Shown here in pieces: positions 6,131 through 64,000 of a stretch of DNA of 64,000 nucleotides. Location: positions 1,240,001 to 1,304,000 of the forward strand of contig NC_016051.1 in NCBI RefSeq assembly GCF_000151205.2. Direction: 5' to 3'. Made by a program: the position numbers and the translations under genes. The stretch is from Thermococcus sp. AM4. GTDB taxonomy: Archaea; Methanobacteriota_B; Thermococci; Thermococcales; Thermococcaceae. Position 1 is the stretch's first letter, and each line of letters starts with the position of its first letter. The notes under the pieces were generated by a model. The model ran no database searches, had not been told where the DNA came from, and saw nothing but the letters and a program-made list of their open reading frames with translations.

Positions 6131-7390
6131 TCACTTCTTGACCCATCCGCGGTCGAGCATGGCCTGGTAAACCCTCTGGACGGCAACGACGTAAGCACCG
6201 TCACGCATGTGGATGTTCTTCTCCTTGGCGGTGTTGTAGACCTCCCAGAAGGCCTTTGTCATCTTCTTGTCGAGCTTCTCGCGAACTTCCTCCTCGGTCC
6301 AGTAGTAGCCGTTTATGTTCTGGACCCACTCGAAGTAGCTGACGGTGACACCACCGGCGTTACAGAGGAAGTCCGGAATCTGGAGGATGCCCTTCTCGCG
6401 AAGTATGTCGTCGGCCTCCGGGGTAACCGGACCGTTAGCAACCTCGGCAACAATCTTGGCCTTGATGTTGTCGGCGTTCTTCTCGGTGATGACCTCCTCG
6501 ATTGCCGCGGGGGCGAGGACGTCGACCTCGAGCTCGAGGAGCTCCTCGTTGGTGATGTTGGTAGCTCCCGGGAAGCCCTTAACTGAGCCGTGCTCCCTCT
6601 TCCACTTGAGGACCTCGTCCGGGTCGAGGCCATCGGGGTTGTAGATACCACCCTTGCTGTCGCTGACGGCGACGACCTTCATGCCGAGCTGCTCCTTGGC
6701 GAGCTTGGCGGTGTAGTAACCGGCGTTACCGTAGCCCTGGACGGCGATGGTCTTGCCCTTGAGATCGATGCCGAGGGCCTTGGCGGCCTCTCTGATGGTG
6801 AAGATAGCACCCTGGGCGGTGGCGGTGCCCCTTCCGAGGGAACCGCCGATGCTGAGCGGCTTGCCGGTTATGACACCAAAGGCCGGACCCTTGCGCCTCA
6901 TTATGGTCTCGTACTCGTCCATCATCCAGCCCATTATCTTGGGGTTGGTGTAAACGTCCGGGGCAGGAATGTCGGTCCACGGGCCGATGACGTCGTAGAT
7001 GGCCCTTATGTAAGCGCGGGCGAGCCTCTCCTGCTCCCTCTCGGAGAGTTTCTTCGGGTCAACGATGATGCCACCCTTACCGCCACCGTAGGGGAGGTCA
7101 ACAACGGCAACTTTCCAGGTCATCCAGGTGGCGAGGGCCTTAACGGTGCTGAGGGTCTCGGCAGGGTGCCACCTTATACCACCCTTGGTTGGGCCGCGGG
7201 CCCAGTTGTGCTGAACGCGGAATCCCGTGAAGACTTTAACAGAACCGTCGTCCATCTCGATGGGAACGCTAACTTCAACAATCCTCATGGGCCTCTTGAG
7301 CCACTCAAGGGCCTCCTCACTTATATCCATGTACTGGGCAGCCCTCTCGAGCTGCTTAACGGCCATCTCAAAGGGGTCGATCTCGACCAT
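6131..7390 (-). CDS. gdhA: Glutamate dehydrogenase
   Basis: Converts glutamate and 2-oxoglutarate with NAD(P), the central ammonia-handling enzyme of Thermococcales and typically very abundant. The 419-residue protein shows [11 protein letters not shown], the catalytic lysine region [23 protein letters not shown], and the nucleotide-binding [10 protein letters not shown] near residue 220. The ATG at 7390 follows GAGGTGATAGAG; an upstream ATG at 7399 overlaps that site. A strong TATA/BRE promoter sits about 50 bases upstream. Confidence 0.97.
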
Positions 7391-7441
7391 CTCTATCACC
7401 TCAGGTTTCGGTAATTTGCGATAGGGGTTACGACCTTTGCG

Positions 7442-7457: not shown

Positions 7458-7630
7458 AAAAAGGAGGCAGGAAAACAGTCCGTTCAAAACAAAAAGTTTA
7501 CTACCAAAATTTTTAGGACAACAGCCCGATTAGGGCAAAGATCTGGCCAAATGGGGGGATGTGCATCGAGAATTTTGTATACATTGAAGAACACTAAAGG
7601 CCATTGAGGTATGAAGAATGAACTAACCTT

Positions 7631-56453: not shown

Positions 56454-59303
56454 TCACGAGAAAAGCCCCAGCGGGGAGTAGCCTTCCCTCACTTTCTCAA
56501 CCTTCAGCTCCATTCCGAGGGCGTTGGTGACCGTTCCGCCCTTCTCGGCCCACCTGCCTGCAGGAATAACGAGGGTCTCGCCGGGCAGCTCAACGGGTTC
56601 GTTCGAAACGACCACGTAGCGTTCTGCCTTCGGTATTCCAGTCACCCATGCCCTTATCAGCCCCTCCGCGTTCGCTCCCTTCCTGAGTACCAGTGTCGGG
56701 ACGTTCAAAGCTTCGCCGTCCTCAGTTACGGCCAGCTCGTAGTCCTTCTCAACGATTTCCTTGCCCCTCAGCAGTATCTTGAGGAGCGGGAACTTCTCCG
56801 TGTCTGCCCTGAGCAGGACGCGTTTTGCCTTTCTGACGTTGTCGAGGGTCGCCGTTGATGGACTTCCGCTCACGGTCGAGCCTATCGGAACGCCCTTACG
56901 CTCGGCGAAGGCCTTGAGGGCTTCTATCTCCTCGTTGGTCAGGTCGGGCGTTAGAACAAGGGCGTAGTTTCCGCTCTCGATGAACTTCTTCGCCTCTTCC
57001 CAGCTTACCGGCTTTCCGTTGAGGAGCAGTCCGCTGAGGGTCTTTTCCCAGGGCCTCTCGAAGCGACAGACATCGCAGAGGTATTTGTTCCACGAGTCCT
57101 CGACGCTCGAAGCCCTCACGAGAGTTCCTGCGTAGACCTCAACCGCCATCTCACAGGCGAGGGAACAGCCGTTGCAGACGGTTTTGATTTTCTCGGTCTT
57201 CCACGGGCCGGGCTTCGTGAGTGGTGGCCTCTCCACTATCGCGCCGACGGGACAGACGTCGGCCAGCTCGCCGATGAACTTCCCATCAACGTCGGCTATG
57301 GTGTCGCCGAGCGGCGGTCCAACCCTCGTGTTGTAGCCCCTGAAGAGGTAGTCTATCACGCCCTCTCCGGCAATCTCGTGGGTGAAGCGGACGCACAGAC
57401 CGCAGAGGACGCACTTGTTGGGGTCGAGCGTAATTCTCGGGTGGCTCTCGTCAATCTCAAAGCGCTTTTCGCCCCTTCCGAGTTCGGGCTTCACGCCGTA
57501 CAGCGTCGCGTACTCCCTCAGCCTGCAGTCGAAAACCGCCAGACAGCCACAGCTCATGCACCGCGAAGCCTCGCTCCTTGCCTCACGTTCGCTCAGCGTC
57601 TTCTCGACCTCCTCAAAGCCCTTCGCCCTCTCCTTCGGGTCGAGGAGCTTCGGCCTGACCCTCGGCCTCCTCGGCGTCTCGCGGTAGTCCTCCTCCGTAA
57701 CGTCCCTCCAGTGGTTGTATGGTCTTAGGTCGAGCAGGAGTTCGTACAGCTCTCTATCCTCGGTCAGCTCCCTGATGTGCTTCTCGGGGTTTGCGAGGAC
57801 TTCTCTGGCCTTCTCAAGCCTGCCCCTGAGGTAGAGGTCTATCATCAGTGCGCCCCTTCTCCCGGTTGCTATGCTCTCTATTACCGTTGACGGCCCGAGA
57901 ACGAGGTCTCCGCCCGCGAAGACGCCGGGCACGTTAGTCTGAAGTGTAATCTCGTCAACAACGGCCCTTCCGCGCCTCGCCTCTATCCCAAGACCCTTCA
58001 GGAACTCCTCGTCGCAGTACTGGCCGATAGCCAGAATGACGTTGTCGGCCTTAACCCTGAACTCGGAACCCTCTATCGGAATTGGCCTCCTCCTTCCGCT
58101 TGAATCTGGCTCGCCGAGGCGCATTTTGATTAGCTCCACCTCCTCGACCCGGCCGTCGCCGATAATCCTCACCGGGTTGGCCAGGAAGAGGAACTCAACG
58201 CCTTCCTCGATTGCTTCTTCTACTTCGCGTTCGTTGGCGGGCATCTCGGCCTTTGAACGGCGGTAGACGACGGTGACCTTCGCGCCGAGCCTTAGAGCGG
58301 TCCTCGCGACATCCATCGCTGTGTTTCCACCGCCGACCACTATAACGCGCTCGCCGAGCTTCACTTCCTCGCCCGTGTTCACCTTCCTCAGGAACTCTAT
58401 GCCGTGCATCACTCCCTCCAAATCCTCTCCGGGAATCCCCATCTTCCTGCTCTTCCAGGCTCCAACTGCTAGGAAAACGGCGTTGTACTTCTCGCGCAGT
58501 TCCTCCAGAGTAACGTCCCTGCCGAGAGCGGTGTTGGTTCTCACCTCGATGCCCGTGTTTATCACGGTCGCTATGTCCTCGTCTAAGAGGTCCCTCGGGA
58601 GCCTATATTCGGGAATGCCGTAGCGGGTCATTCCTCCGAGTTCGGGCATCGCCTCGAAGATTGTAACCTCGTGGCCCTTCAGCCTCAGGTAGTAGGCGCA
58701 CGCCAGTCCTGCAGGCCCTCCCCCGACGACGGCAACGCGCTTCCCGGTAGACGGCGGTATCTCGGGCATCCATGGGCCGTTCTCGAGGTCGTAATCGGCA
58801 GCGAAGCGCTTCGCGAGCCTTATGCCGACAGGTTCATCGACGAGGTTCCTCCTGCAGGCTTCCTCACAGAAGGCCGGGCAGACCCTTCCGAGAACTGCCG
58901 GCAGGATGTACTTCTCCTTCATCAGCTTGACGGCCTCGTGGTACTTGCCCCTCGCTATCAGCGCGAGGTAGCCCTGTATGTCGGCGTGGGCGGGACAGGC
59001 GTCCTGGCACGGACCGATGCAGTCACCGTAGTGGCTCGAAAGGAGAAGCTCAAGGGCCGTTTTGCGCATCTCGATGACCCTATCGCTCAGGGTCTCGACT
59101 TTGAGGCCCTCCCTGGGCTTCAGCGTACAGGCCGTCGTTACTCCCCTCTCGGTCTCGACGAGGCAGAGCCTGCACGAGCCGTAGGGTTCGAGCTCCTCGG
59201 TATAGCAGAAGCCGGGAACGTGGCCAATCTCGCGCAGGAACTCTATGAGTGGCTTATCCGCCGGAGCGTCAACTTCCTTTCCGTCAACGATGAGCTTGAC
59301 CAT
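56454..59303 (-). CDS. NuoG-like/GltD fusion: multi-cluster iron-sulfur flavoprotein subunit
   Basis: A 949-residue fusion. Residues 1-75: NuoG-type [2Fe-2S] (GFCYTEELEPYGSCRLC). About 95-170: GltD-like Fe-S region (GPCQDACPAHADI, GRVCPAFCEEAC). About 185-500: GltD FAD/NADPH folds (VAVVGGGPAGLACAYYL; VIVVGGGNTAMDVARTA) and FAGGDLVLGPSTV. About 620-720: further clusters (NKCVLCGLCVRF, DVCPVGAI). About 730-790: VCNGCSLACEM plus C-term CDVC, molybdopterin Fe-S style but no cofactor-binding body. It starts at ATG 59303 behind GGTGAG and is third after NuoE and NuoF. It is likely the NAD(P)H-side subunit of an electron-transfer complex. Confidence 0.85.
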   Translation of the reverse strand: MVKLIVDGKEVDAPADKPLIEFLREIGHVPGFCYTEELEPYGSCRLCLVETERGVTTACTLKPREGLKVETLSDRVIEMRKTALELLLSSHYGDCIGPCQDACPAHADIQGYLALIARGKYHEAVKLMKEKYILPAVLGRVCPAFCEEACRRNLVDEPVGIRLAKRFAADYDLENGPWMPEIPPSTGKRVAVVGGGPAGLACAYYLRLKGHEVTIFEAMPELGGMTRYGIPEYRLPRDLLDEDIATVINTGIEVRTNTALGRDVTLEELREKYNAVFLAVGAWKSRKMGIPGEDLEGVMHGIEFLRKVNTGEEVKLGERVIVVGGGNTAMDVARTALRLGAKVTVVYRRSKAEMPANEREVEEAIEEGVEFLFLANPVRIIGDGRVEEVELIKMRLGEPDSSGRRRPIPIEGSEFRVKADNVILAIGQYCDEEFLKGLGIEARRGRAVVDEITLQTNVPGVFAGGDLVLGPSTVIESIATGRRGALMIDLYLRGRLEKAREVLANPEKHIRELTEDRELYELLLDLRPYNHWRDVTEEDYRETPRRPRVRPKLLDPKERAKGFEEVEKTLSEREARSEASRCMSCGCLAVFDCRLREYATLYGVKPELGRGEKRFEIDESHPRITLDPNKCVLCGLCVRFTHEIAGEGVIDYLFRGYNTRVGPPLGDTIADVDGKFIGELADVCPVGAIVERPPLTKPGPWKTEKIKTVCNGCSLACEMAVEVYAGTLVRASSVEDSWNKYLCDVCRFERPWEKTLSGLLLNGKPVSWEEAKKFIESGNYALVLTPDLTNEEIEALKAFAERKGVPIGSTVSGSPSTATLDNVRKAKRVLLRADTEKFPLLKILLRGKEIVEKDYELAVTEDGEALNVPTLVLRKGANAEGLIRAWVTGIPKAERYVVVSNEPVELPGETLVIPAGRWAEKGGTVTNALGMELKVEKVREGYSPLGLFS

Positions 59304-59304
59304 C

Positions 59305-61104
59305 TCACTCACCCCCGGTAACGATTTCTATCGCGTTGAACCGGCACACCTCGTAGCAGGTTCCGCACTTGATGCAGGCAGATTGGTCTATCTCGTGGGG
59401 CTTGAGCTTCTCGCCGGTTATCGCGTTGGCCGGGCAGAAGATTGCGCAGGCGGTGCAGCCGGTGCACTTTTCTGGGATTATGACGTACCTTATGAGGGGC
59501 TTGCAGACCTTGGCCGGGCACTTCCCCTCGATATGGGCGAGGTATTCGTCCCTGAAGTAGCGGAGCGTTGTTAGGACGGGGTTCGGGGCGGTCTGCCCGA
59601 GACCGCAGAGTGAACCGGCCTTGACCTGGTGGGCGAGCTTCTCGAGCCTCTCAAGGTCCTCCTTCGTGGCCTTGCCTTCGGTGAACCGCTCGAGGATTTC
59701 GAGCATCCTCTTCGTTCCGACCCTGCAGAAGGTGCACTTACCGCAGGACTCCTTGACAGTGAAGTCGAGGAAGAACTTGGCGACATCGACCATACAGGTG
59801 TCCTCGTCCATGACGACCATTCCACCGCTCCCCATTATCGCGCCGGTCGCGTTCACGCTCTCGTAGTCAACGGGCGTGTCGAAGAGGTACTCCGGGATGC
59901 AGCCTCCCGAGGGTCCGCCGAGCTGAACTGCTTTAATCCTCTTCCCGGTCTTCGTTCCACCGCCTATGTCGTAGAGTATCTCCCTCAGCGTCGTTCCCAT
60001 TGGAACTTCGACGTTTCCGCCGTGCTTTATCTTGCCCGACAGCGCGAAGACTTTCGTTCCTTTGCTCTTCTCGGTTCCTAGCGAGGCAAAGGCCTTCCAG
60101 CCGTGCCTTATTATCCACGGCACGTTCGCCCACGTTTCAACGTTGTTTATGTTGGTCGGCTTCCCGAAGAGGCCCTTCTGGGCAGGGTAAGGAGGTCTCG
60201 GCCTCGGCATTCCGCGCTTGCCCTCTATTGAAGCTATCAAAGCGGTTTCCTCACCGCAGACGAACGCTCCGGCGCCTTCCTTTATCTCGATGTCAAAGGA
60301 GAAGCCGGAGCCAAGTATGTTCTCACCGAGGAAGCCCCTCTCCTTAGCTTGCTTCAGCGCTATCCTCAGCCTCCTTATGGCGAGCGGGTACTCGGCGCGA
60401 ACGTAGATGAAGCCCTTCGTCGCCCCAATCGCGTAAGCCCCTATTATCATTCCCTCTATTACCCTGTGCGGGTCGCCCTCAAGGACGTTCCTGTCCATGA
60501 AGGCTCCGGGGTCGCCCTCGTCTGCGTTGCAGATGATGTACTTCTCGTCGCCCTTCGCCTCCCTCGTGAACTTCCACTTCAGGCCGGTCGGGAAGCCTGC
60601 TCCACCCCTTCCGCGAAGCCCGGATTTCATAATGATATCTATGATTTCCTCGGGCTCCATACTAAGGGCCTTCTTTAGAGCCTCGTAACCACCGACGGTG
60701 ATGTACTCGTCTATGTTCTCGGGGTCTATGTAGCCGGAATTTTCGAGCACTATCTTCACCTGCTTGGCGAAGTAGCCGTCAACGTCCCACGTCTTCCTCT
60801 CGCCGTTCTCCCACCAGTCGCGCTTGACTATCCACTCCTCGACGGGCTTCCCGTTTACCACGTGCTCCTCTATAATCCTCGGAACCTTCTTCGGGTCGAC
60901 GTGGCCGTAGGTGATAATCTCGTCCTCGGTGATTATGTCAACGAGGGGTTCGCGGTAGCACATGCCGACGCAACCAACTATCTTGAGCTTCACGTCGAGG
61001 TTTCTCCTCTCAAGCTCGGCCTTTATTGCCTCGTAGGTTTCCCTCGCGCCGGCAGCAATCCCGCAGGAGTTCATGCCGACCGCTATGGCCTTTATCTCAG
61101 ACAT
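59305..61104 (-). CDS. NuoF-like NADH/flavin subunit with extra ferredoxin domains
   Basis: A 599-residue FMN protein: N-terminal thioredoxin-like [2Fe-2S] (MNSCGIAAGA, KIVGCVGMCYREP), NuoF core (SGLRGRGGAGFPTG for FMN/NADH, CNADEGDPGAF), GPSGGC, the [4Fe-4S] ESCGKCTFCRVGT, then two C-terminal 4Fe-4S motifs (CTGCTACAIFC, CIKCGTCYEVC). It overlaps NuoE by eight bases. It should bind NAD(H) and pass electrons to the other subunits. Confidence 0.93.
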   Translation of the reverse strand: MSEIKAIAVGMNSCGIAAGARETYEAIKAELERRNLDVKLKIVGCVGMCYREPLVDIITEDEIITYGHVDPKKVPRIIEEHVVNGKPVEEWIVKRDWWENGERKTWDVDGYFAKQVKIVLENSGYIDPENIDEYITVGGYEALKKALSMEPEEIIDIIMKSGLRGRGGAGFPTGLKWKFTREAKGDEKYIICNADEGDPGAFMDRNVLEGDPHRVIEGMIIGAYAIGATKGFIYVRAEYPLAIRRLRIALKQAKERGFLGENILGSGFSFDIEIKEGAGAFVCGEETALIASIEGKRGMPRPRPPYPAQKGLFGKPTNINNVETWANVPWIIRHGWKAFASLGTEKSKGTKVFALSGKIKHGGNVEVPMGTTLREILYDIGGGTKTGKRIKAVQLGGPSGGCIPEYLFDTPVDYESVNATGAIMGSGGMVVMDEDTCMVDVAKFFLDFTVKESCGKCTFCRVGTKRMLEILERFTEGKATKEDLERLEKLAHQVKAGSLCGLGQTAPNPVLTTLRYFRDEYLAHIEGKCPAKVCKPLIRYVIIPEKCTGCTACAIFCPANAITGEKLKPHEIDQSACIKCGTCYEVCRFNAIEIVTGGE

Positions 61105-61561
61105 CGAGCTTCCCCTCCCTGAGTTTCCTTATGAGCTTCCTAACCTTGTCCGGCGTGAGCTTTCCAAACACCTTGTCGTTTATCATGACCACCGGTGCCA
61201 AACTGCAACAGCCGAGGCAGGCCACCCTTTCGAGGGTTATCAATCCGTCCTCCGTCGTCTGGCCCTCTTCTATGCCGAGCTCCTCCGTTATCGCCTGGAC
61301 AATGGTTACCGCTCCGTTCACGTGGCAGGCCGTTCCGTGGCAGATTCTCACAACGTACTTTCCCAGTGGCTCGAACCGGAACTGCGCGTAGAACGTCGCG
61401 ACGCCGTAGACCCTGCTCAGGGGAATTCCGAGGTACTCGGCGATTCTCTCAAGGACTTCCCTTGGAAGGTAGCCGAAGCGCTCCTGAGTCCGCTGGAGAA
61501 GGGGGATTAGCGAGCTCGGCTCGGGGGGATACGAGGTCAGGTAATCGACTTCCGCCTCCAT
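61097..61561 (-). CDS. NuoE-like [2Fe-2S] subunit
   Basis: A 154-residue thioredoxin-like ferredoxin with four cysteines at CHGTAC and ACLGCC, the NuoE/HydA-type layout. ATG 61561 follows GGTGGTG. It is the first gene of the minus-strand NuoEF-G operon and shares the promoter region with the hydrogenase operon on the plus strand. Confidence 0.93.
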   Translation of the reverse strand: MEAEVDYLTSYPPEPSSLIPLLQRTQERFGYLPREVLERIAEYLGIPLSRVYGVATFYAQFRFEPLGKYVVRICHGTACHVNGAVTIVQAITEELGIEEGQTTEDGLITLERVACLGCCSLAPVVMINDKVFGKLTPDKVRKLIRKLREGKLDV

Positions 61562-61599
61562 GAGCACCACCACTTATGGGCGATAGTTGGTTTGCCGTG

Positions 61600-61608
61600 C
61601 TTATAAAT
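61600..61608 (-). promoter_or_regulatory. TATA box of the NuoE operon
   Basis: The minus strand reads CATTTATAAG, giving a start near 61575 and a leader of about 15 bases. The SurR motif array lies 17 bases further upstream, the position expected for an activator. Confidence 0.6.
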
Positions 61609-61624
61609 GTGCATTGAAGCACAA

Positions 61625-61655
61625 GTTTGTAACAAAAGGTTCCCAACCTCCGGTT
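61625..61655. promoter_or_regulatory. Tandem SurR-type motif array between the two redox operons
   Basis: The consensus known for the Pyrococcus sulfur regulator SurR is GTTn3AACn5GTT. Here it runs in phase: GTT-TGT-AAC (61625-61633), five bases, GTT-CCC-AAC (61639-61647), five bases, GTT (61653-61655), a 14-base period. In P. furiosus, SurR activates the sulfhydrogenase I operon from such sites. The array lies between TATA boxes of both divergent operons. Confidence 0.85.
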
Positions 61656-61684
61656 TGAAAAATCCTTAAGGGAATCTTTACAAA

Positions 61685-61696
61685 CTTAAAATTATA
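61685..61696 (+). promoter_or_regulatory. TATA-like element of the hydrogenase operon
   Basis: CTTAAAATTATA, 30 bases past the SurR array, would start transcription close to the hydB start, giving a very short leader. Confidence 0.5.
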
Positions 61697-61718
61697 GCCC
61701 GATAGGGGCGTGGTCGAG

Positions 61719-62723
61719 TTGAGATATGTAAAGCTACCCTCCGGGAACTTTGAGGACTTCTTCAATTCACTGAAGGGGATAGGCCAAATCTACGGGCCGG
61801 TTAAAGAGGGGAAGACCCACCACTTCCGAAGGGTCGAGGAAGCCGGTCAGATGGACCTGAAATACACCAGAACGATGCTCCCTCCCAAGAAGTTCTTCGT
61901 CAGGCCGAGGGAGAGACTCTTCAGCCTCGAGGACGGCTGGTGGAGGAAGGAAGGGGACGGAAAGCCCTTCGTGCTCTTCGGCGTCCACTCATGCGACGTT
62001 CACGCCCTCAAAATCCTTGACAGAGTCTACCTCTCCGAGCCGGTTGACCCCTACTACGCGAGGAGAAGGAAGAGCGCTTTCATCGTCGGCATAAGCTGTC
62101 TCCCCGACGAGCTGTGCTTCTGCAAAAGCCTTGGAACGCACTTCGCGATGGACGGCTTTGACCTATTCCTACACGAGCTTCCCGATGGATGGCTCGTCAG
62201 GATAGGGAGCGTGAGGGGACACGAGGTGGTCTGGGAGAACGCGAGGCTATTCGACGAGGTGAGCGATGAGGACATAGCCAACTTCAAGGCCTTCGAGGAG
62301 AGGCGCGCTGAAGCCTTCAAGAGGGAGCTCCGCTCGGAGGGCCTCGCAGACACGCTCGATTTGGCCTACAACAGCCCGGTCTGGAAGGAGTACGCCGAGA
62401 AGTGCCTCGCCTGCGGGAACTGCAACCTCGTCTGTCCGACGTGCCGTTGCTACGAGGTCTGCGACCGCTGGGTCGATGCCTACAGGGCCGTTCGCGAGAG
62501 GCGCTACGATTCCTGCTTCATGGAAAGCCACGGCCTCGTCGCGGGCGGTCATAACTTCAGGCCCACACGCTTGGACCGCTTCAGGCACCGCTACTACTGC
62601 AAGAGCTACTTCGACCCCTCAGCGGGCTTCAACTGCGTCGGCTGTGGCCGGTGCGACGAGTTCTGTCCAGCTGGTATAGAGCACGTTAAGGTTCTCGACG
62701 AGATAAGGGGGTCGCTGGAATGA
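61719..62723 (+). CDS. hydB: Sulfhydrogenase I beta subunit (HydB)
   Basis: A 334-residue iron-sulfur subunit of the cytosolic [NiFe] hydrogenase that uses NADPH. Two ferredoxin-like motifs are visible: CLACGNCNLVCPTC (near residue 228) and CVGCGRCDEFC (near 308). The TTG at 61719 gives MRYVKLP at the N-terminus, the usual HydB start; a GTG at 61710 is possible. It is first of hydB-hydG-hydD. Confidence 0.93.
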   Translation: MRYVKLPSGNFEDFFNSLKGIGQIYGPVKEGKTHHFRRVEEAGQMDLKYTRTMLPPKKFFVRPRERLFSLEDGWWRKEGDGKPFVLFGVHSCDVHALKILDRVYLSEPVDPYYARRRKSAFIVGISCLPDELCFCKSLGTHFAMDGFDLFLHELPDGWLVRIGSVRGHEVVWENARLFDEVSDEDIANFKAFEERRAEAFKRELRSEGLADTLDLAYNSPVWKEYAEKCLACGNCNLVCPTCRCYEVCDRWVDAYRAVRERRYDSCFMESHGLVAGGHNFRPTRLDRFRHRYYCKSYFDPSAGFNCVGCGRCDEFCPAGIEHVKVLDEIRGSLE

Positions 62724-63586
62724 ATCCCTACGAGAGCCATCCGGCGAGAATCCTTGAGGTTAAGGACCTGACCCCGAGGGAGAAGCTCTTTACACTCCGC
62801 TTCCTCGACGAGAAGCTCAACGAGGAGTTTACCTTCCGGCCGGGACAGTTCGTCATAGTGGACGTTCCCGGCTTCGGCGAGTTCCCGATAAGCCTCTGCT
62901 CGTCCCCGACGAGGAGTCCAATCCAGCTCTGCATAAGAAAGGCCGGCAGGATGACGAAGTTCATACACGGAATGAAGGAAGGCTCGGTCGTCGGAATCCG
63001 CGGGCCGTACGGCAACGGCTTCCCGATGGAGGACATGGAGGGCTCGAACCTAATCCTCGTGGCCGGCGGCCTTGGAATGGCGCCCCTGCGCTCGGTTCTC
63101 TGGTACGCCCTCGACACCGGCAAGTACGAGCACGTCTGGCTCTTCTACGGCACGAAAGCCTACGAGGAGGTACTCTTCCGCGACGAGGTTCTCCACCTCC
63201 TCAAGCACGGGAGTGCGATGAACTGCACCGTCAAGCTCGCCTACGAAATCGAGAGCCCCTCGTGCATCTACCTTGAGCAGGGCTTCTCCGACAGGGTCTG
63301 CAGGGGAGTGGTTACCGACCTCTTCAGGGGCGAGAACTTCGACGTCGAGAACTCCTACGCCCTAATCTGTGGCCCGCCAATCATGTACCGCTTCGTCATA
63401 AGGGAGCTCCTCAACAGGAAGCTCTCACCGGGGAGAATCTACATGACACTCGAGAGGCGCATGCGCTGTGGAGTCGGCAAGTGCGGCCACTGCGTCGTCG
63501 GAACGAGCGTCTCGATGAAGTACATCTGCAAAGATGGGCCGGTTTTCACCTACTGGGACGCCCTCTCGACGAGGGGGTTGATATGA
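62720..63586 (+). CDS. hydG: Sulfhydrogenase I gamma subunit, FAD/NAD(P)-binding (HydG)
   Basis: A 288-residue ferredoxin reductase-type subunit: FRPGQFVIVDVPGFGEFPIS (FAD), ILVAGGLGMAPLRSVLW (nucleotide-binding) and a C-terminal [2Fe-2S] site RCGVGKCGHCVVG with distal Cys YICKDGP. It overlaps hydB by four bases and hydD as ATGA. It passes electrons between NADPH and the hydrogenase core. Confidence 0.95.
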   Translation: MNPYESHPARILEVKDLTPREKLFTLRFLDEKLNEEFTFRPGQFVIVDVPGFGEFPISLCSSPTRSPIQLCIRKAGRMTKFIHGMKEGSVVGIRGPYGNGFPMEDMEGSNLILVAGGLGMAPLRSVLWYALDTGKYEHVWLFYGTKAYEEVLFRDEVLHLLKHGSAMNCTVKLAYEIESPSCIYLEQGFSDRVCRGVVTDLFRGENFDVENSYALICGPPIMYRFVIRELLNRKLSPGRIYMTLERRMRCGVGKCGHCVVGTSVSMKYICKDGPVFTYWDALSTRGLI

Positions 63587-64000
63587 TGAAGCTCGGCGTG
63601 TTTGAGCTTACCGACTGCGGTGGTTGCGCCCTCAACTTCCTGTTCCTCTACGAGAGGCTCTTCGACGTTCTTGAGTTCTACGAGATAGAGGAGTTCCACA
63701 TGGCGACCAGGCTTGAAGGGAGGCACTTCGATGTCGGCCTCGTCACGGGAACAGTCTCAAGCCACCGCGACCTTGAAGTCCTCAGGGAAGCGAGGAACCG
63801 CTCCGACTACCTCATAGCCCTCGGAACCTGCGCCACCCACGGTTGCCTTCAGGCGAGCGTCGAGCTTCCGCTTAAGGAGAAGTTGAAGGCCGTTTACGGC
63901 GACGAGGGGAATCCGATGAGGGCGCTCGACCCCAAGCCCGTCGTCGAGTACGTTACCGTCGACCTCGCCATACCCGGCTGTCCCTACGACAAGAACGAGC
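63583..64000 (+). CDS. hydD: Sulfhydrogenase I delta subunit (small hydrogenase subunit), cut by window end
   Basis: The first 139 residues of the small [NiFe] hydrogenase subunit. The proximal-cluster motif ELTDCGGCALNF is at the N-terminus, then LGTCATHGCLQ and IPGCPYDKNE. ATG 63583 overlaps hydG stop. The large catalytic subunit hydA is expected just beyond. Confidence 0.93.
   Translation, partial: MMKLGVFELTDCGGCALNFLFLYERLFDVLEFYEIEEFHMATRLEGRHFDVGLVTGTVSSHRDLEVLREARNRSDYLIALGTCATHGCLQASVELPLKEKLKAVYGDEGNPMRALDPKPVVEYVTVDLAIPGCPYDKNE

Follow-up and report, generated by a model that had tools for sequence, protein, structure and literature searches.

Two redox operons diverge from a short gap in the genome of Thermococcus sp. 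AM4, and the sequence of that gap raises the question of whether one regulator serves both. The gap holds a phased repeat, GTTtgtAACaaaagGTTcccAACctccgGTT, at positions 61625-61655 of the window, by which is meant the whole stretch of 64,000 nucleotides that was analysed, itself part of a closed genome of 2,086,428 bases.

The divergent operons

The minus-strand operon encodes a NuoE-like subunit, a NuoF-like subunit and a GltD-NuoG fusion (Table 1). This is the architecture of Nfn-Bfu in T. sibiricus (PMC9304861) and, likewise, of Nso in T. litoralis and Stn in Sporomusa (PMC7483475), going by the passages of those papers that deal with the enzymes. Judged by subunit architecture the product is an Nfn-Bfu/Nso/Stn-type transhydrogenase, and for simplicity the operon is called here Nfn-Bfu, or nuoE after its first gene. 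On the plus strand the family models for ShyB, ShyC and ShyD match in that order, which identifies sulfhydrogenase II. Translation of shyB probably starts at TTG 61719, with GTG 61710 as the alternative; counted from GTG, the match to the NF040829 profile starts at residue 4.

Table 1. Features of the locus, and one gene elsewhere in the window (window coordinates)
Feature	Position	Strand	Remarks
GltD-NuoG fusion subunit (BfuA/StnC/NsoC type)	56454..59312	-	Pfam PF07992, PF14691, PF13510, PF22117
NuoF-like subunit (BfuB/StnB/NsoB type)	59305..61104	-	Pfam PF01512, PF10589
NuoE-like subunit (BfuC/StnA/NsoA type)	61097..61561	-	Pfam PF01257; NCBIfam NuoE; start ATG 61561 after GGTGGT
nuoE (Nfn-Bfu) TATA box, ATTTATAA on the minus strand	61601..61608	-	fixed distance in 44 loci
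Inverted-repeat-like conserved block, GTGCATTGAAGCAC	61609..61622		between nuoE TATA box and array
Five-half-site array, GTTn3AACn5GTTn3AACn5GTT, 14-bp period	61625..61655	+	pattern match; kept at register level in 44/44 nuoE loci
Palindrome 1, GTTtgtAAC, nuoE-proximal	61625..61633		17 bp to nuoE TATA box
Palindrome 2, GTTcccAAC	61639..61647		matches place of lone SurR palindrome in NfnI-neighbour lineages
Fifth half-site, GTT	61653..61655	+	adjoins BRE-like block of sulfhydrogenase II
Probable sulfhydrogenase II BRE/TATA, GAAAAATCCTTAAGG (relatives GAAAAATTCTTAAAT)	61658..61672	+	kept across genera; predicted position
shyB, sulfhydrogenase II beta subunit	61719..62723	+	NCBIfam NF040829, 665 bits, just below cut-off 690
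shyC, sulfhydrogenase II gamma subunit	62720..63586	+	NCBIfam NF040830, 623 bits, over cut-off
shyD, sulfhydrogenase II delta subunit	63583..63999	+	NCBIfam NF040831; runs off window end
Glutamate dehydrogenase gene	6131-7399	-	

Geometry of the array

The half-sites are GTT (61625-61627), AAC (61631-61633), GTT (61639-61641), AAC (61645-61647) and GTT (61653-61655). These coordinates bear out the initial annotation, according to which GTTn3AAC occurs twice and is followed by a third GTT, at an exact 14-bp period, to give two overlapping GTTn3AACn5GTT sites; a third such site is read on the minus strand at 61647-61631. With about 1.33 helical turns to a period, neighbouring palindromes lie on different faces of the helix, a phasing which is compatible with cooperativity present or absent and neither proves nor excludes it.

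The spacings and half-sites are those of the SurR operator, GTTn3AAC or GTTn3AACn5GTT, of P. furiosus, T. barophilus and T. piezophilus. As with the known operators of the Thermococcales, the array lies upstream of a hydrogenase promoter in a genome that encodes SurR. Unlike the known operator, which has two or three half-sites, it has five in one unbroken phase. Though GTTn3AAC by itself turns up in about 8% of shuffles of the gap, so that a chance arrangement in AT-rich sequence might be thought of, none of 40,000 dinucleotide shuffles of the 148-bp gap yielded the array, its analytic expectation is about 4e-7, and its register is kept in 44 loci; the probability of mere coincidence is negligible. 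Genome-wide there are 36 copies of the extended motif GTTn3AACn5GTT against 4 of the reversed control, while the full array occurs once, at 61625-61655 (reversed control 0). It is present in 44 of 94 Thermococcaceae genomes, none of which has a six-half-site chain (GTT...AAC).

The two promoters

The array had been placed 17 bp from the nuoE TATA box, which is correct, and 30 bp from a sulfhydrogenase TATA box at about 61686, which is probably not. Directly past the third GTT, at 61658-61672, is a BRE/TATA-like block, GAAAAATtCTTAAat, conserved across genera. A TATA box at 61686 would put the transcription start about 3 nt before TTG 61719, over the conserved ribosome-binding GGTGAT. In T. kodakarensis the median distance from TATA to start is 23 bp and the median leader is 16 nt (PMC4247193); by these values, transcription from the block at 61658-61672 would begin near 61695, and the leader, of about 24 nt, would include the ribosome-binding site (in relatives, GGTGAT). 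For this reason 61658-61672 rather than 61686 is probably the sulfhydrogenase II BRE/TATA.

By sequence and conservation the array is then upstream of the BRE/TATA of both operons, 17 bp away on the nuoE side and about 9 bp from the probable sulfhydrogenase box. Such unequal distances could mean that SurR bound there is an activator for one operon only, with the other repressed or left unaffected. This is unlikely, however, as a position upstream of both TATA boxes is the arrangement that has been described for activation (PMC12162507).

Between the nuoE TATA box and the array, the block at 61609-61622 is conserved in nuoE loci and is retained where sulfhydrogenase II has been lost. These two features could be explained by a second factor that acts with SurR at this block (GTGCAYTRAAGYAC) in the control of nuoE, or by some other regulator altogether that reads GTTn3AAC-like repeats. 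Either is quite improbable: the array is an exact match to the published SurR motif, and the block, which recurs nowhere else in the genome exactly and just three times with one mismatch, does not resemble a regulon site. It was rejected as a regulon motif for want of a second exact copy, and may be part of the core promoter.

Conservation at nuoE loci

Regions upstream of shyB and of nuoE were gathered across the Thermococcaceae. The nuoE set comprises 44 loci from 43 genomes, with G003 (a 43% identical paralogue) and G081 excluded. The expectation that the phasing would be conserved in relatives holds throughout: every one of the 44 loci keeps the GTT-14-GTT-14-GTT register, and the distance to the first base of TTATAA is always exactly 24 bp. 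Among the 30 distinct arrays just one of the 15 half-site bases varies, between A and C, the other 14 being invariant, while each of the 16 spacer positions shows variation. The array is exact in 36 loci. In the other eight, mostly of a T. litoralis-like group, CAC replaces the second AAC; palindrome 1 is perfect in that group and palindrome 2 reads GTTn3CAC. Two perfect palindromes are thus dispensable in some loci, a point against the shared-operator reading. In all 43 shyB-linked cases AAG stands to the left of the array at n5 and AAA to its right at n3; these are either degenerate continuations of the same phase or pieces of the two promoters. In one genome (G076, L104 1240-2200) about 1 kb of unrelated DNA splits shyB near codon 12, with a CAC-form array intact upstream.

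The partner opposite sulfhydrogenase II

Wherever the neighbour could be read in the Thermococcaceae, sulfhydrogenase II diverges from either NuoE of Nfn-Bfu or the NfnI small subunit. NfnI is found in 25 genomes and NuoE in 45 (one of these being a distant paralogue), and genome-wide they never co-occur. The exact array is present at 36 of 44 nuoE loci versus 0 of 23 NfnI loci, counts in which related genomes are not independent. Most NfnI loci do carry a SurR site. In four of them, which belong to the T. litoralis-like group, the array takes the CAC form, so lineage matters besides the neighbour, and a rule that the array register is present if and only if nuoE is present was discarded on their account. 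Other NfnI lineages (e.g. L059, L086) have a single palindrome with half-sites on both sides, AACn5GTTn3AACn5GTT, in the position of palindrome 2, 83-88 bp before shyB. One palindrome suffices for sulfhydrogenase II in lineages with an NfnI neighbour, which counts against the array being a shared operator.

Retention of the array after loss of sulfhydrogenase II

Five genomes (G018, G024, G027, G049 and G057) have nuoE and lack an intact sulfhydrogenase II. All 15 half-site bases beside nuoE are kept in each of the five, from which it appears that the Nfn-Bfu promoter uses the array independently of sulfhydrogenase II and, with even the last GTT kept, that the nuoE promoter alone holds the whole array. 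In G018 the deletion starts directly past the last GTT and is followed by a shyB remnant, and in G027 part of the region around the shyB start survives. Losses that have left such remnants may in some cases be recent, which weakens the argument from the retention of palindrome 2.

These natural deletions bear on whether the array is one operator or two. Palindrome 1 could serve nuoE, and palindrome 2 with the last GTT could serve sulfhydrogenase II, as independent overlapping sites that do not cooperate. The position of the lone palindrome in L059 and L086 fits such a division, as does the T. litoralis-like form with its perfect palindrome 1 and altered palindrome 2. On the other hand, palindrome 2 and the last GTT persist in the five genomes just described (subject to the reservation about recent loss), and the exact spacing is never relaxed in the 44 nuoE loci. 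Two separate sites are a possibility to be taken seriously, but not the one to which the evidence as a whole leans.

One of the five genomes, G024, differs from its relative G028 at none of the 15 half-site bases, at 11 of 16 spacer positions and at 3 of 90 flanking positions. However, 18 bp of the G024 nuoE array, spacers included, are identical to a second SurR-type array in that genome, the two arrays being those at L112 3298-3328 and L124 1620-1650. Exchange between the two is possible, and so purifying selection cannot be gauged cleanly from this comparison. It is odd that the spacers have changed so much more than the nuoE flank, which is nearly unchanged.

SurR and the proposed switch

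The genome encodes a SurR (NCBIfam NF047699, 396 bits versus a cut-off of 250; 302 bits to the solved PF0095). It is intact, its CxxC pair reads C-T-E-C, and its gene is beside that for Pdo (surR/pdo, at L023). It has been reported that reduced SurR binds DNA, that its sites have an activating effect when upstream of a TATA box, and that SurR is oxidised by sulfur, comes off the DNA and in this form does not bind (PMC12162507). If binding, redox switching and activation from upstream carry over from that literature, on which this part of the reading is based, then with no elemental sulfur SurR with a reduced CxxC pair would bind the array, upstream of both BRE/TATA elements, and would activate the Nfn-Bfu operon on one side and sulfhydrogenase II on the other. 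With sulfur present SurR would be oxidised and leave the DNA, and expression of both operons would fall. The position of the array upstream of both promoters thus predicts that the operons are on together without sulfur and off together with it. The five alternating half-sites make up two full palindromes plus a further half-site and, at the same time, two overlapping extended sites sharing one half-site, so that at least two SurR units would be expected on the array.

The initial annotation had proposed that one regulator, SurR, could drive both operons. In favour of this are the match to the published motif, the presence of SurR in the genome, the conserved phasing and the position of the array upstream of both TATA boxes, and it is likely, as judged from sequence, that the array is a SurR operator common to two divergent promoters and co-activates both operons when sulfur is absent. 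Counting against a shared switch, expression in T. barophilus under sulfur and pressure has no simple on/off pattern (PMC12162507). We infer SurR binding to the array and the co-activation of Nfn-Bfu, and also the number and cooperation of the bound SurR units. A more specific form is tentative, and rather doubtful as a whole: that SurR assembles cooperatively on the 14-bp-phased half-sites, the middle one being shared by neighbours, in a single bidirectional switch that ties sulfhydrogenase II to the bifurcating transhydrogenase opposite, and that this operator stayed in place while NfnI and Nfn-Bfu were swapped.

Other SurR-type sites

A five-half-site array is also found before sulfhydrogenase I in L120, and in several further genomes by sequence likeness; in L118 one precedes the gene for an Nfn-like small subunit. 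A second sequence type of it, GTTATAAACCTAyCGTT... (L117 1546-1576), recurs in G018, G019, G025 and G061; in G019 one is near a sodium/proline symporter-like gene. Elsewhere in the window, at 7474-7498, a symmetric four-half-site SurR-type site, AACn5GTTn3AACn5GTT, is about 75 bp upstream of the glutamate dehydrogenase gene. A double palindrome, GTTn3AACn5GTTn3AAC, at G000:C1:129505-129527 (L016 1501-1523) is beside a gene of the proteasome-assembly-chaperone family, which is not evidently a sulfur gene; that neighbour, and the location of surR/pdo at L023, led to its rejection as the surR/pdo promoter.

Relation to known operators, and significance

To the initial annotation an overlapping array serving a divergent pair looked new. 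The sharing of a site had in fact been tabulated, and the array is at other promoters too. In T. piezophilus the divergent sulfhydrogenase II and NfnI operons have one extended motif between them (PMC8595942 Table 2); the present locus is like that one in that a SurR site is common to sulfhydrogenase II and a divergent bifurcating ferredoxin:NADP oxidoreductase, and unlike it in having the NuoE/NuoF/GltD-NuoG enzyme as partner and a second palindrome in the site. At the T. barophilus surR/pdo divergent promoter SurR sites also serve two divergent genes (PMC12162507 Table 2), though there the two sites are separate and here they form one phased array. The passages on the enzyme in PMC9304861 and PMC7483475 contain no description of SurR control of Nfn-Bfu, Nso or Stn. 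SurR, the extended motif and one site common to divergent operons are therefore already known. What is new, as far as the surveyed literature shows (the original SurR papers and the 2017 Thermococcales survey being outside its scope), is that five half-sites form a fixed array, that this array outlasts the loss of sulfhydrogenase II and that NfnI and Nfn-Bfu strictly alternate at this locus. The array elaborates a known switch and does not represent a new kind.

Archaeal activators of known geometry are few. Half-sites fixed over dozens of genomes, together with natural deletions of one target operon, make it readily testable in what arrangement SurR units bind and whether half-sites can be shared. 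For the Thermococcaceae, the strict either/or of NfnI and Nfn-Bfu suggests that regulation couples sulfhydrogenase II to a single electron-bifurcating partner.
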